A program made the position numbers and the translations under genes. From Gelidibacter sediminis (lineage in GTDB: Bacteria > Bacteroidota > Bacteroidia > Flavobacteriales > Flavobacteriaceae), in assembly GCF_004364975.1 (NCBI RefSeq), contig NZ_SOBW01000008.1, positions 1 to 64,000 on the forward strand: DNA of 64,000 nucleotides, in the 5' to 3' direction. Below the pieces are notes generated by a model. It had not been told where the DNA came from. It searched no databases and worked only from the letters and a program-made list of their open reading frames with translations. Positions 20,545 to 35,622 of the stretch are shown in pieces (the first letter of the stretch is position 1; every line of letters starts with the position of its first letter).

Positions 20545-22089
20545 TTAATTTATTTTAGAGTTTGAATTAATTTCTGATAGCGGAATTGGCAAGTAGGCAT
20601 GAGAAGCTGCACTAAAATTCGTTCTCCCTGCTGCTTGCATGGCCTCGTCTAACAAATTCCATCGTCGTAAGTCAAAGAATCGAACAGACTCCAAGGTAAA
20701 TTCCATTGTACGTTCATGTATGATTTGTTTTTTAACGTCTGCCTGAGACACCGCAGTTATTGGCGGCATATTGCCGTGTACTCTTCTCACTTCATTGATA
20801 ATAGTGATGGCTTGTGGGGTTGCACCTGTCTCATTTAAGGCTTCTGCATACATCAGTAACACATCAGCATAACGCATCAGTACCACATTTACCCCAACAT
20901 AACTATTGTTGGAGACATAATTTGGCAACCATTTTCTAAAGTAAGCTGAATTATCATTAGTGTTCCCGTAAGTATCATTCATAAGTTGATCCCAAGTGCT
21001 TCCCTGCATTGCATTGGTGCTTGGGTCATTATAATATGGATCTCTAAAATATAGTGAGCCATAAAGTCTATAATCGTAAAGTCCGTTACTAGCAATCTTT
21101 CCTTCTTTTTTCATGTCATTTACAACATTCATAGTGGCTGCAATACCACCCCAACCGCCAATGGCCCAATCGCCTACAAAGGCGTGCAAACGCGTCGCAT
21201 TCCAAGAGGTTGCATCACCACTTTTAAATTGCAGTTCAAAAACAGATTCCGAGTTGTTTTCATTTTCACCATTAAATAAGCTGGAAAAATCAGATTCCAA
21301 AGCATAAGTTCCAGCAGCCCCCTCAACGATAGGCTTAAGTGCACTTGCTGCATTAGCAAAATCTGAAGGTTCTGCTGATGAAGGGTCTCCTGCCTTGTAG
21401 AGGTATGCTTTTCCTAAATACGCTAGAGCAGCTCCTTTGGTAGCTCTACCTGGCTCAGTACTTTCAACGTTTTTAAGCATCTCAGCAGCCTGTTTGAAAT
21501 CTTTTATGATGGCTTCCCACGATTCTGGACGCGATGCCAAAGGTTTGTCTAGGGTTTCATTGGAAATCATTTCAGTTCTTAATATGATTTGCTCATATAG
21601 CGTCAGTAATTTAAAGTGATAATAGCCTCTTAAAAAAGTCGCTTCTCCGATGATCTGTTTTTTTTCCGCATCAGATATTTGATCTGAAGTCATTTCGCCA
21701 ACCTTGGTAATGACTTGATTTGAGAAATTTAGCCCTTTATAATTTGTGGTCCAAATGACATCAATAAAGGTGTGGCCATTGGTGTAGTTAAAATTGAATA
21801 TAGACATCCAATGCGAATAATTACTGGCATCTGGTCCTGGTAGAGCATAATCAGATCTGAAATACTCAACTACAGGTCGTCCTTCTTGCCATCCATCCCA
21901 AAAATTACTTCGAGATTCTAATTCTGAATAGGCGGCTACCAATCCGGATTGTGCATCTTCAGCGTTTCTCCAAAAGCTTTCAGAGGTGAGTTGATCTGGA
22001 GATGTTTGTTCTAAAAACTCATCATCATTACAGGATGTTGAGAAGGTTGCTATAAGCGTAACGACAATTATTTTATATAAATTTTTCAT
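20545..22089 (-). CDS. SusD/RagB family nutrient-binding outer-membrane lipoprotein
   Basis: A protein of 514 residues with a lipobox (TFSTSC, C20). It has the SusD-family layout: N-terminal block (FLEQTSPDQLTSESFWRNAEDAQSGLVAAYSEL), TPR-like helices, and the C-terminal block VLMRYADVLLMYAEALNETG ... RTMEFTLESVRFFDLRRW. SusD proteins form a lid on their SusC partner and bind the incoming glycan or peptide. It follows susC by 20 nt. Ligand specificity is not visible here; it has to be read from the neighbouring enzymes. Confidence 0.95.
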   Translation of the reverse strand: MKNLYKIIVVTLIATFSTSCNDDEFLEQTSPDQLTSESFWRNAEDAQSGLVAAYSELESRSNFWDGWQEGRPVVEYFRSDYALPGPDASNYSHWMSIFNFNYTNGHTFIDVIWTTNYKGLNFSNQVITKVGEMTSDQISDAEKKQIIGEATFLRGYYHFKLLTLYEQIILRTEMISNETLDKPLASRPESWEAIIKDFKQAAEMLKNVESTEPGRATKGAALAYLGKAYLYKAGDPSSAEPSDFANAASALKPIVEGAAGTYALESDFSSLFNGENENNSESVFELQFKSGDATSWNATRLHAFVGDWAIGGWGGIAATMNVVNDMKKEGKIASNGLYDYRLYGSLYFRDPYYNDPSTNAMQGSTWDQLMNDTYGNTNDNSAYFRKWLPNYVSNNSYVGVNVVLMRYADVLLMYAEALNETGATPQAITIINEVRRVHGNMPPITAVSQADVKKQIIHERTMEFTLESVRFFDLRRWNLLDEAMQAAGRTNFSAASHAYLPIPLSEINSNSKIN

Positions 22090-22109
22090 GGTGTTATGTT
22101 TTGTTGTTC

Positions 22110-32490: not shown

Positions 32491-35400
32491 ATGAAATTAA
32501 AATTTTTAAGTGCCCTCATTTTGTGTGTGCTAGTGGGATGCAAAACTGCACCCCTTTTGGAAGTGCCAGCACAAACGTCTCACTTCAATCATGAAATTTT
32601 CGAAGACCATAAATTGGCACCACGAGCAACTTATTTTGGGTTTGAATCGGCAGATATTAAGGAGAAGGAAAACTCAAAACGGTTTTTAAGCTTAAATGGG
32701 CAATGGAAATTTAATTTCGTTACAGACCCTAAAACAAGACCAACAACCTTTCAGAATATCGATTTTGATGATTCCGAATGGAATACCATTCCGGTGCCCG
32801 CCAATTGGGAAGTGGAAGGTTATGACCATCCGATTTATTTAGATGAACGCTACCCATTCACCACAACTTGGCCTGACGCACCCACCGATTATAATCCTGT
32901 AGGAACCTATAGAAAAGAAATCACTTTAGACGAAGCATTCTTATCCGAAGAAGTCATCTTGCATTTTGCAGGTGCTAAATCGGCAATGTATGTCTATGTT
33001 AATGGCGATTATGTTGGGTATTCCCAAGGCAGTAAATTGCCGGCAGAATTTAATATTACCAAGCATCTAAGACCAGGTAAAAATATATTGGCCTTACAAA
33101 TGTTCAGATGGAGCGACGCCAGTTACTTGGAGAGTCAGGACTTTTTACGCATGAGCGGCATAGAGCGCGACGTGTATTTGTATACACAACCTAAAGTGGC
33201 CGTTTCTGATTATTACGCTTATACCAATTTACAGGACGATTATATCAATGGCGTTTTAAAAAACACAGTTTCAATAGTTAATCCATCGAAAGATGTAGTT
33301 CAGAGAAAGGTGTCTGTTGCGGTGTTGGATGGCGAAACTTCGAAATTTACCGACTCTAGAGTTATCACTATTCCTGCGAATGAAAGTGTTGAATTTATTT
33401 CAGAAGGCATTTTTGAAACTGTAAAAAAATGGTCGGCTGAACAACCAAACTTATACACTTTAAAAATAAGTTTGGAAGACGAATCCAACGCTAAAAACAA
33501 CCAATACATCACAAAAAAAATAGGTTTTAAAAGCGTCGAAATTAAGAATTCTCAAGTACTCATAAATGGTAAGGCTATTTACATCAGAGGTGTGAACAGA
33601 CACGAAACTGATCCGTTGACGGGACATGTGGTGTCAAGAGAATCGATGGAAAAAGACATTCAACTGATGAAGCAGAATAACATCAACGCCGTGCGTGCTT
33701 CACATTACCCTAACGATCCCTATTGGTTGGAGTTGTGTGATCAGTATGGTTTGTATGTGGTAGACGAAGCAAATATTGAGAGTCACCCATTGGCCATAGA
33801 TAAAAACACACAAATCGGAAATGAAATGAGCTGGTTGGCAGCACATGAAGCGCGTACACAACGCATGTACTATCGCGATAGAAATCATGTGTCCATTTAT
33901 TCATGGTCGCTTGGTAACGAAGCGGGAACTGGCGATATATTTAGAACCACCTACAAATGGTTAAAAGCACAAGACGATAATAGAATCGTGCAATATGAAC
34001 CGGCAGGCAAAGATGATTATACAGATTTGTATTGCCCAATGTATCCAAAGCCAGAATATTTAATTGCTCACGGAAAATCTGATTCTGATAAACCGTCAAT
34101 TATGATTGAGTATGCGCATGCTATGGGGAATTCGGTAGGCAATCTGCAAGATTATTGGGATATTATTGAAACTTATTCTAATCTCCAAGGCGGCTATATT
34201 TGGGATTGGGTGGACCAAGCATTGGAATATAAAGATGAACAAGGCAACCCGTATTTTGCGTATGGCCACGATTATCATCCAGATTTGCCAACAGACGGGA
34301 ACTTTTTAAATAATGGTTTGGTAGATCCGCACCGTATGCCACATCCACATTTAACCGAAGTCAAGAAGGTTTATGAGCCTGTGCAGTTCAATTATCTGGG
34401 TAATGGCGTGATAGAAATCGTCAACAAGAATTTCTTTATAGATTTATCAGATAAAACTATCGCTTGGAAAATTTTAGAAGACGGGAAAGAGATTGTTCAA
34501 GATCAGTCTATAGTGGTGCATGTGAATCCGCAGGAGTTAGCTAAAATCAAACTTGATAAATTCCCAGCTTCTTTAAATGCAGAAAAAGACTATTTACTTC
34601 AAATGAGTTTAATTCAAAAGGAGGATGAAAATTTAATTCCGAAAGGTCATGAAGTAGCTTGGGATGAATTTTTACTTCAAAAAGGAAACCTTAAAAAGAC
34701 AGAATCAAAGGAGAGAATAGCGCTCGAAATCACTGCAAGCAACGATGTGTTCACAATTAAAAATGACCTTGTAGATTTTCAGATTAACGCTAAATCGGGA
34801 GAAATACAGTCATGGACGTATAATGGGAAACTTATAACGAATGACCCAATCCGCCCGAATTTTTGGAGAGCCCCAACCGATAATGATTTAGGTAACAACA
34901 TGCATCAATGGGCTGAAATTTGGCAGGATGCCACTTATAATAATAGGCCCAAATTAGTTGGAAATCCTATGAATTCAAAAGGTGGCGTTACGTATAAAGT
35001 GGATTATGTTTTACCGAATAATGAGGCTAATGTGCAAGTGCAATACACCTTAAAGTCTGATGGAAGTTTGAATGTGGCATATAGTTTTTCACCCAATCAA
35101 AAGGACCTTCCAAACATCCCTCGTATAGGTATGTATATGACTTTGTCCAGAGATTTTGCAGATATTACGTGGTATGGAAAAGGAGAGACAGAAAGTTACT
35201 GGGACAGAAAAACTGGCGTTAAAACTGCTGTCTATTCAGGGAAAATTATCGATCAGTTTGAACGATACCTTCGTCCGCAGGAAACTGGAAATAAAACGGA
35301 TATACGTTGGGTTGAAGTGTCATCACCTCATGTAACTTTAAAAGCAGCGGGTAACGTGTGGCTCAACACCAGTGTATGGCCTTTTTCCATGACTGAAATC

Positions 35401-35622
35401 GATTTTAATAGTGACGATGCCAGCGCATCTGCTTCAGGTTTAGTGCCAGTAACCAAAAAACGCGGTGCAGATATTAAACTTGGAAAAACAGTGCAATGGA
35501 ACATCGATTATCTGCAAATGGGCGTTGGTGGTGATACCTCATGGGGCAGATTGGTGCATCCGGAATACACAATTCCGGCTGATAAGGTCTATAACTATAC
35601 ATTTTCTATTGTGCCTTATTAA
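32491..35622 (+). CDS. GH2 beta-galactosidase-like lipoprotein
   Basis: A protein of 1043 residues, full LacZ length. Lipobox LCVLVGC (C17). Domains in order: sugar-binding jelly roll (~60-230), Ig-like (~240-345), TIM barrel (~346-640), second Ig-like, and the small-chain/Bgal domain 5 (~760-1043). Catalytic acid/base E477 ([10 protein letters not shown]) and nucleophile E540 ([12 protein letters not shown]) are present. It hydrolyses terminal beta-galactosides with retention; other beta-glycosides remain possible. It is the third gene of the operon, 70 nt after the fusion gene, and ends at a strong terminator. Confidence 0.93.

Follow-up and report, generated by a model that had tools for sequence, protein, structure and literature searches.

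What is taken up and broken down by a six-gene locus of Gelidibacter sediminis in which a kinase-M23 peptidase-phospholyase fusion stands between two glycosidase-like lipoproteins and faces a SusC/SusD pair? The locus occupies positions 20545-35622 of the window, by which we mean the whole stretch of 64,000 nucleotides analyzed here (C2:1-64000 of a 3.56 Mb genome, completeness 99.95%). An earlier note on this DNA had proposed that it dismantles the glycosylated hydroxylysine of collagen, a major animal protein. Our analysis makes it probable that the collagen glycan is the target of this polysaccharide-utilisation-type locus, which would serve the import, deglycosylation and breakdown of glucosylgalactosyl-hydroxylysine. 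On this reading, candidate enzymes can be named for the route that runs from outer-membrane import to 2-aminoadipate semialdehyde, and a substrate can be proposed for a fusion family (PRK06148) that is described in NCBIfam only as 'hypothetical protein'. The reading further suggests an M23 peptidase that works in the cytoplasm and belongs to the breakdown of a single amino acid, and a marker by which microbes that live on animal matrix could be recognised from their genomes.

In the proposed route, SusC and SusD would import glucosylgalactosyl-hydroxylysine peptides, from which alpha-glucose would be removed by the GH63 lipoprotein and beta-galactose by the GH2 lipoprotein. We infer from sequence the import step, the specificities of the two glycosidases, the substrate of kinase and lyase and the part played by M23. 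Inside the cell, in the cytoplasm, the kinase domain of the fusion would phosphorylate the 5-hydroxyl of hydroxylysine and its pyridoxal phosphate (PLP) domain would eliminate phosphate and ammonia to give 2-aminoadipate 6-semialdehyde. This product would cyclise to piperidine-6-carboxylate (P6C), which P6C dehydrogenase would oxidise to 2-aminoadipate.

The fusion (29394-32420, plus strand) is an intact open reading frame of 1008 residues containing an APH kinase domain (residues 27-257), an M23 domain (439-536) and an Aminotran_3 domain (604-1001), the last being the class III PLP phospholyase. It is a member of PRK06148/NF004799, with 1163.7 bits against a cut-off of 1128 over residues 7-1004. 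The best PDB relatives of the PLP domain are human ethanolamine-phosphate phospho-lyase (6tor, 426 bits) and then the phospholyase A1RDF1 (5g4i, 323 bits), with fold comparison giving the same order; the AlphaFold model of the fusion has a mean pLDDT of 83.8, the PLP domain having weak stretches. Six positions (K51, D204, N209, D226, D229 and K849) were found to be invariant, each in 157 of 157 aligned three-domain fusions; we take the kinase residues among them to be catalytic and K849 to be the PLP lysine. The zinc motif of M23 (HxxxD, catalytic His, HxH), formed by H440, D444, H481, H494, H530 and H532, is kept in 156 of the 157 three-domain proteins, which come from several phyla. The sole exception (L137, G427:C46; L labels denote fetched loci and G labels genomes) is a divergent second fusion copy of 967 residues in which the zinc motif is lost, and the same genome has an intact copy (L125).

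When the sequences were read by eye, a lipoprotein-like signal was seen at the N-terminus of the GH63-like and GH2 proteins and none on the fusion. The simplest meaning of an intact M23 zinc site in a kinase-lyase that lacks a signal is that peptides are a substrate, and M23 would probably serve to release hydroxylysine from small peptides. Two-domain kinase-lyases (~755 residues) manage without M23. As a bolder and rather doubtful proposal, the fusion may be a three-step enzyme in which M23 cuts hydroxylysine from short glycine-rich peptides in the cell and passes it to the kinase and then to the phospholyase; together with SusC/SusD, GH63 and GH2 this would be the first bacterial system devoted to glycosylated hydroxylysine, and relatives in other phyla and on a Thorarchaeota-titled contig would make hydroxylysine a widely used nutrient.

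A total of 397 genomes of the same family were scanned, and the fusion was matched at E <= 1e-150 in 143 of them. By query coverage, 93 of these were classed as three-domain forms and 50 as two-domain forms; a number of the matches are fragments at contig ends. In a sample of the phylum, 50 of 395 genomes match the fusion. Stretches of ~19 kb were fetched for 65 of the 93 three-domain genes, which were taken in order of score regardless of their context. The same was done for 15 two-domain genes (of 50) and for 20 of the 53 phylum-list places, the latter all in genomes outside the family. A scan of named genomes contributed the best 80 of at least 587 confirmed loci; these possibly overlap with the other samples and the counts are not summed.

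Neighbouring genes in these other genomes favour hydroxylysine over ethanolamine as the substrate. The hydroxylysine reading of the earlier note, which had kept ethanolamine as an alternative, is supported by equivalent loci that carry the next enzymes of the path, namely P6C dehydrogenase (L-piperidine-6-carboxylate or 2-aminoadipate semialdehyde dehydrogenase; model NF050084, cut-off 730) and 2-oxoadipate dioxygenase (HglS; model PF07063). In two genomes, G250 and G021, these genes stand right behind SusD. In both, SusD is 72-73% identical to that of the window, and the genes after it in the same orientation encode 2-oxoadipate dioxygenase (220 bits in G250, 217 in G021) and P6C dehydrogenase (828 and 826 bits, respectively). 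SusC shares this strand with a FecR-like protein and a 188-residue protein; GH63-fusion-GH2 lies on the other strand, facing away beyond SusC.

The clearest pathway was observed in L103, a two-domain locus of genome G317, where the same-strand order is 2-oxoadipate dioxygenase (113 bits, the gene being cut off by the end of the stretch), P6C dehydrogenase (826 bits), GH63, a GH42 beta-galactosidase at the place of GH2, the kinase-lyase and a YdiJ-like oxidase (582 bits, below its cut-off of 1350). This set reads as putative removal of glucose, removal of galactose, conversion of hydroxylysine to 2-aminoadipate semialdehyde and its oxidation, then 2-oxoadipate to 2-hydroxyglutarate to 2-oxoglutarate; the aminotransferase step was not seen in it. 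P6C dehydrogenase was also found 156 bases from the fusion in L088 (817 bits), 1.9 kb from it in L058 (812 bits) and ~1 kb from the kinase-lyase in L192, a Latescibacterota metagenome-assembled genome (MAG; 780 bits); listed by genome instead of by locus, it is near the kinase-lyase in G317, G006, G378 and the Latescibacterota contig. PF07063 occurs near the kinase-lyase in L050 and L058 as well, with similar genes in L049, L061 and L142. The route downstream may differ in L088, which has a 3-oxoadipyl-CoA thiolase further along and a sulfatase on the opposite side.

Two P6C dehydrogenases were found in six of the 397 genomes (at most three candidates being scored per genome), and five of these six carry the kinase-lyase (Fisher p 0.025). 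One copy in each of the five lies 0.16, 1.9, 4.6, 10.3 and 10.3 kb away from the kinase-lyase, both copy positions being taken from the scan for G250 only and the copy beside the kinase-lyase being counted as one of the two for G006, G021, G317 and G378. The mere presence of P6C dehydrogenase was dropped as a genome-level marker, as 360 of the 397 genomes have it and only second copies are informative.

The neighbours also connect the fusion with the catabolism of other residues typical of collagen, in agreement with the collagen-type substrate named in the earlier note. Proline-racemase-family hydroxyproline epimerase or dehydratase genes were found in 20 of the 65 three-domain loci, between 0.004 and 7.4 kb from the fusion; simple arithmetic (one to two copies per ~3.5 Mb, 19 kb per locus) gives a chance expectation of less than one locus in 65. 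A GH63-like gene is near the fusion in 21 of the 65 and a GH2-like gene in 25 (either one in 26), so that the arrangement described in the earlier note is beyond chance. Both glycosidase and hydroxyproline marks occur in six loci and at least one mark in 40. Galactokinase was found in seven loci, GalT in six and a sodium/solute symporter in five, each above cut-off in at least one model; all seven galactokinase loci hold GH63 and GH2, as expected for glucosylgalactosyl-hydroxylysine. By genome, PF05544 is present in 81 of 93 three-domain genomes, 45 of 50 two-domain genomes and 88 of 254 with neither form (three-domain versus neither, p 3.5e-19, related genomes being treated as independent).

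The catabolism concerned is that of 4-hydroxyproline and, by similarity, of 3-hydroxyproline. Representative neighbours include a 4-hydroxyproline epimerase (579 bits, cut-off 376) and a pyrroline/piperideine-2-carboxylate reductase (386 bits, cut-off 322). Three other kinds of protein in the hydroxyproline cluster (D-amino acid dehydrogenase, aldehyde dehydrogenase and DHDPS-like) stay below the cut-offs of the models they match, and their roles are assigned from gene order. A second proline-racemase-family set has Thr for the epimerase Cys (SPTGSG or CPTGSG versus SPCGTG), presumably the mark of trans-3-hydroxyproline dehydratase. In a Polaribacter MAG (L146), one locus joins the reductase, a dehydratase-like gene, an aldose epimerase, GH63, GH2, the fusion and a further GH2, with 4-hydroxyproline genes following on the opposite strand. 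When 66 fusions were placed on a tree, GH63/GH2 contexts were intermingled with hydroxyproline contexts, clustered yet repeatedly exchanged: four context labels need 18 changes, against a minimum of 3 and a shuffle mean of 33.3, by a quick method that leaves 22 of 63 inner branches open. Such interleaving would be expected if a single enzyme with a single substrate had passed from one context to another.

The six genes of the locus are intact open reading frames exactly where the earlier note had placed them, and the domain calls agree with the gene set and arrangement it gave; the genes, their families, their intact motifs and their associations are direct observations. SusD (20545-22089; SusD_RagB, 121.7 bits), an outer-membrane lipoprotein, the SusC/RagA TonB-dependent transporter (22110-25205; TIGR04056, 858 bits, cut-off 368) and a TPR protein with a C-terminal helix-turn-helix (HTH) region (25471-27186; TPR_12, 108 bits) lie on the minus strand and diverge from the plus-strand enzyme operon GH63-fusion-GH2. 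The TPR-HTH protein is a likely regulator, its C-terminus having a weak response-regulator match far below cut-off; at its position other loci have a FecR-like protein (identified by eye) and a 188-residue protein instead. With a SusC/SusD pair, lipoprotein glycosidases and a regulator, the locus has the make-up of a polysaccharide utilisation locus. The first base of the fusion frame directly follows the GH63 stop codon, and 70 bases separate the fusion from GH2. The same six genes in identical order were found in Winogradskyella bathintestinalis (L138), and GH63-fusion-GH2 recurs across many genera with differing regulators. W. bathintestinalis comes from a deep-sea fish intestine and hydrolyses gelatin and not casein; of two kits that tested for beta-galactosidase, one gave a negative and the other a weakly positive result (PMC7615552).

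The predicted alpha-glucosidase (27363-29393, plus strand) is a YgjK-like GH63 lipoprotein that matches MGH1-like_GH (217.9 bits), Glyco_hydro_63 (42.1) and YgjK_N (37.9). Its nearest PDB relative is E. coli YgjK (240 bits), and it scores 348 bits against the YgjK equivalog PRK10137, whose cut-off is 625, which makes it a relative and not YgjK itself. The motifs WESGxD and EN[YW]xP, which we take to hold the GH63 catalytic residues, are present in all 31 GH63-like proteins compared. The predicted beta-galactosidase (32491-35622, plus strand) is a GH2 lipoprotein, apparently of the LacZ type, with Glyco_hydro_2_C and Bgal_small_N matches, and it scores 992.1 bits over nearly its full length against NF052611, narrowly below the cut-off of 999. 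Both families act on many sugars.

Several known systems resemble parts of this locus. In animals, HYKK (AGPHD1) and PHYKPL (AGXT2L2) act in the same order, a kinase followed by a PLP ammoniophospholyase, and the class III PLP domain of the window is close to ETNPPL; the bacterial enzymes differ in being on one polypeptide with M23 between them, beside genes for import and deglycosylation. Hydroxylysine degradation by the animal enzymes was reportedly described by Veiga-da-Cunha 2012, a work to which bacterial fusions are said to have been the guide. PMC12138971 notes that gene fusions can reveal what two uncharacterised partners do, and among its references Veiga-da-Cunha 2012 stands beside those on gene fusion. 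The kinase-lyase idea itself may thus be old; new here is its link to glycan removal, import and hydroxyproline.

The collagen cluster of Colwellia BB5 likewise combines catabolism of collagen-derived hydroxyproline with a TonB-dependent receptor, but it has an M9 collagenase with proline and hydroxyproline genes, and the available portion of the paper names no glycosidase or kinase-lyase there (PMC7883544); the word 'hydroxylysine' occurs 0 times in its main text. This cluster was the nearest match in the literature searched (titles and the starts of abstracts, with most subscription journals outside the coverage), in which no description of bacterial hydroxylysine catabolism or of this fusion was found. 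PGGHG and FjGH65A are alpha-1,2-glucosidases whose chemistry concerns the collagen disaccharide or comes close to it; these are GH65 whereas the window enzyme is GH63, and FjGH65A is described on kojibiose (PMC8626586). YgjK is the closest solved GH63 relative and its catalytic-region motifs are kept in the window protein, which is shorter and below the YgjK family cut-off; YgjK has reportedly been linked to Glc-alpha-1,2-Gal. For YgjK a Michaelis constant of ~230 mM for nigerose is given, and another natural alpha-glucoside is assumed, in PMC9061262.

A number of observations weigh against the collagen-glycan reading, and three other explanations have to be considered with them. The nearest solved relatives of the PLP domain, the ethanolamine-phosphate enzyme and A1RDF1, raised an ethanolamine reading at the outset, in which the kinase-lyase would convert ethanolamine to acetaldehyde and the locus would take up an ethanolamine-bearing glycan. 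This was set aside, and we regard it as improbable, because those linked aldehyde dehydrogenases whose identity could be settled proved to be P6C dehydrogenases; 2-oxoadipate dioxygenase belongs later in the same path, and hydroxyproline genes cluster with the fusion. To our knowledge, ethanolamine breakdown has no use for P6C dehydrogenase or 2-oxoadipate dioxygenase. No ethanolamine-specific gene was noticed among the neighbours, though no model for such genes was run. The P6C argument has its own counterweights, in that the enzyme is near-universal in the family and G225, the sixth two-copy genome, is without a kinase-lyase at the cut-off used.

It is unlikely that the hydroxylysine comes from a source other than glucosylgalactosyl collagen, such as free hydroxylysine in dissolved organic matter or other glycosides or derivatives, with GH63 and GH2 acting on a different sugar. 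In its favour, most of the fetched fusion loci are without glycosidases, reduced genomes of 1.2-1.5 Mb (L096, L101 and L102) keep the three-domain fusion, and the GH63 specificity for Glc-alpha-1,2-Gal is only inferred. Against this source stands the recurrence of GH63 and a beta-galactosidase, GH2 or the GH42 of L103, together with the fusion and with the galactokinase of seven loci. The same recurrence across many genera, with differing regulators and in L103 another beta-galactosidase family, makes it very improbable that this is an unrelated polysaccharide locus carrying the kinase-lyase as a passenger, even if each enzyme family is broad by itself.

Against the collagen-glycan reading it counts that 25 of the 65 loci have no GH63, GH2 or hydroxyproline mark near the fusion, that a fusion kept in such small genomes is odd for collagen specialists, and that the PF05544 statistic leans on the independence of related genomes. 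The reading must also be set against the rest of the G. sediminis genome. M9 and U32 collagenases are absent from it at E <= 1e-10 (other protease families were not searched), and by this measure it is not that of a dedicated collagen degrader; some other protease must make the peptides. 2-Oxoadipate dioxygenase is absent at the same threshold, which leaves open the later fate of 2-aminoadipate here. The outside-to-inside path of the earlier note is supported, but its description as complete was too strong, with these genes absent and no inner-membrane transporter identified. The single M9 genome of the 397 (G123) has neither kinase-lyase form, and M9 as a companion of the fusion was rejected as supporting nothing.

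Linkage of the kinase-lyase to P6C dehydrogenase was found in relatives; in G. sediminis the enzyme is encoded elsewhere, at G000:C1:857217-858605. A 4-hydroxyproline cluster (L218) lies at G000:C1 ~579.7-589.6 kb (fetched as 574000-593500). It contains a DUF885 protein and an S9 protein of DPPIV type, and the DUF4407, DUF4440 and 93-residue proteins on its flanks are homologous to gene clusters 4, 2 and 25, respectively; these clusters were found in 20, 24 and 6 of the fetched fusion loci. L218 is thus an apparent empty slot of the fusion, which seems to have changed places between this kind of cluster and the SusC/SusD locus. A GH65 gene is present outside the locus, at G000:C1:439742-440842.

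The marks were also counted beyond the three-domain loci of the family. Among the 15 fetched two-domain loci (L103-L117), 14 have no mark and the fifteenth is L103. The 20 phylum loci include four with a hydroxyproline enzyme and none with GH63/GH2, and the best 80 of the at least 587 named loci include 14 and eight, respectively. For loci outside Bacteroidota or with an untitled phylum, 31 were checked among L166-L217 (35% identity) and only L192 is marked, so the hydroxylysine reading is not extended to loci outside Bacteroidota. L198, a three-domain fusion of 41% identity, lies on a contig titled Candidatus Thorarchaeota archaeon. In the reduced genomes L101 and L102 the fusion adjoins hydroxyproline genes, and in L120 and L121, outside Flavobacteriaceae, a galactokinase-like gene and a 308-residue gene come immediately before the fusion.

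Two further features were noted in the window. Positions 35993-37411 (plus strand), 3' of GH2, encode a lipoprotein-like protein of 472 residues without a Pfam match, and no counterpart was seen at the same place in the maps of relatives. On the minus strand at 13253-17342, a row of genes for a metallo-beta-lactamase-rhodanese protein, TauE/SafE, two Sulf_transp proteins and a Crp-type regulator is possibly a sulfur/persulfide set.

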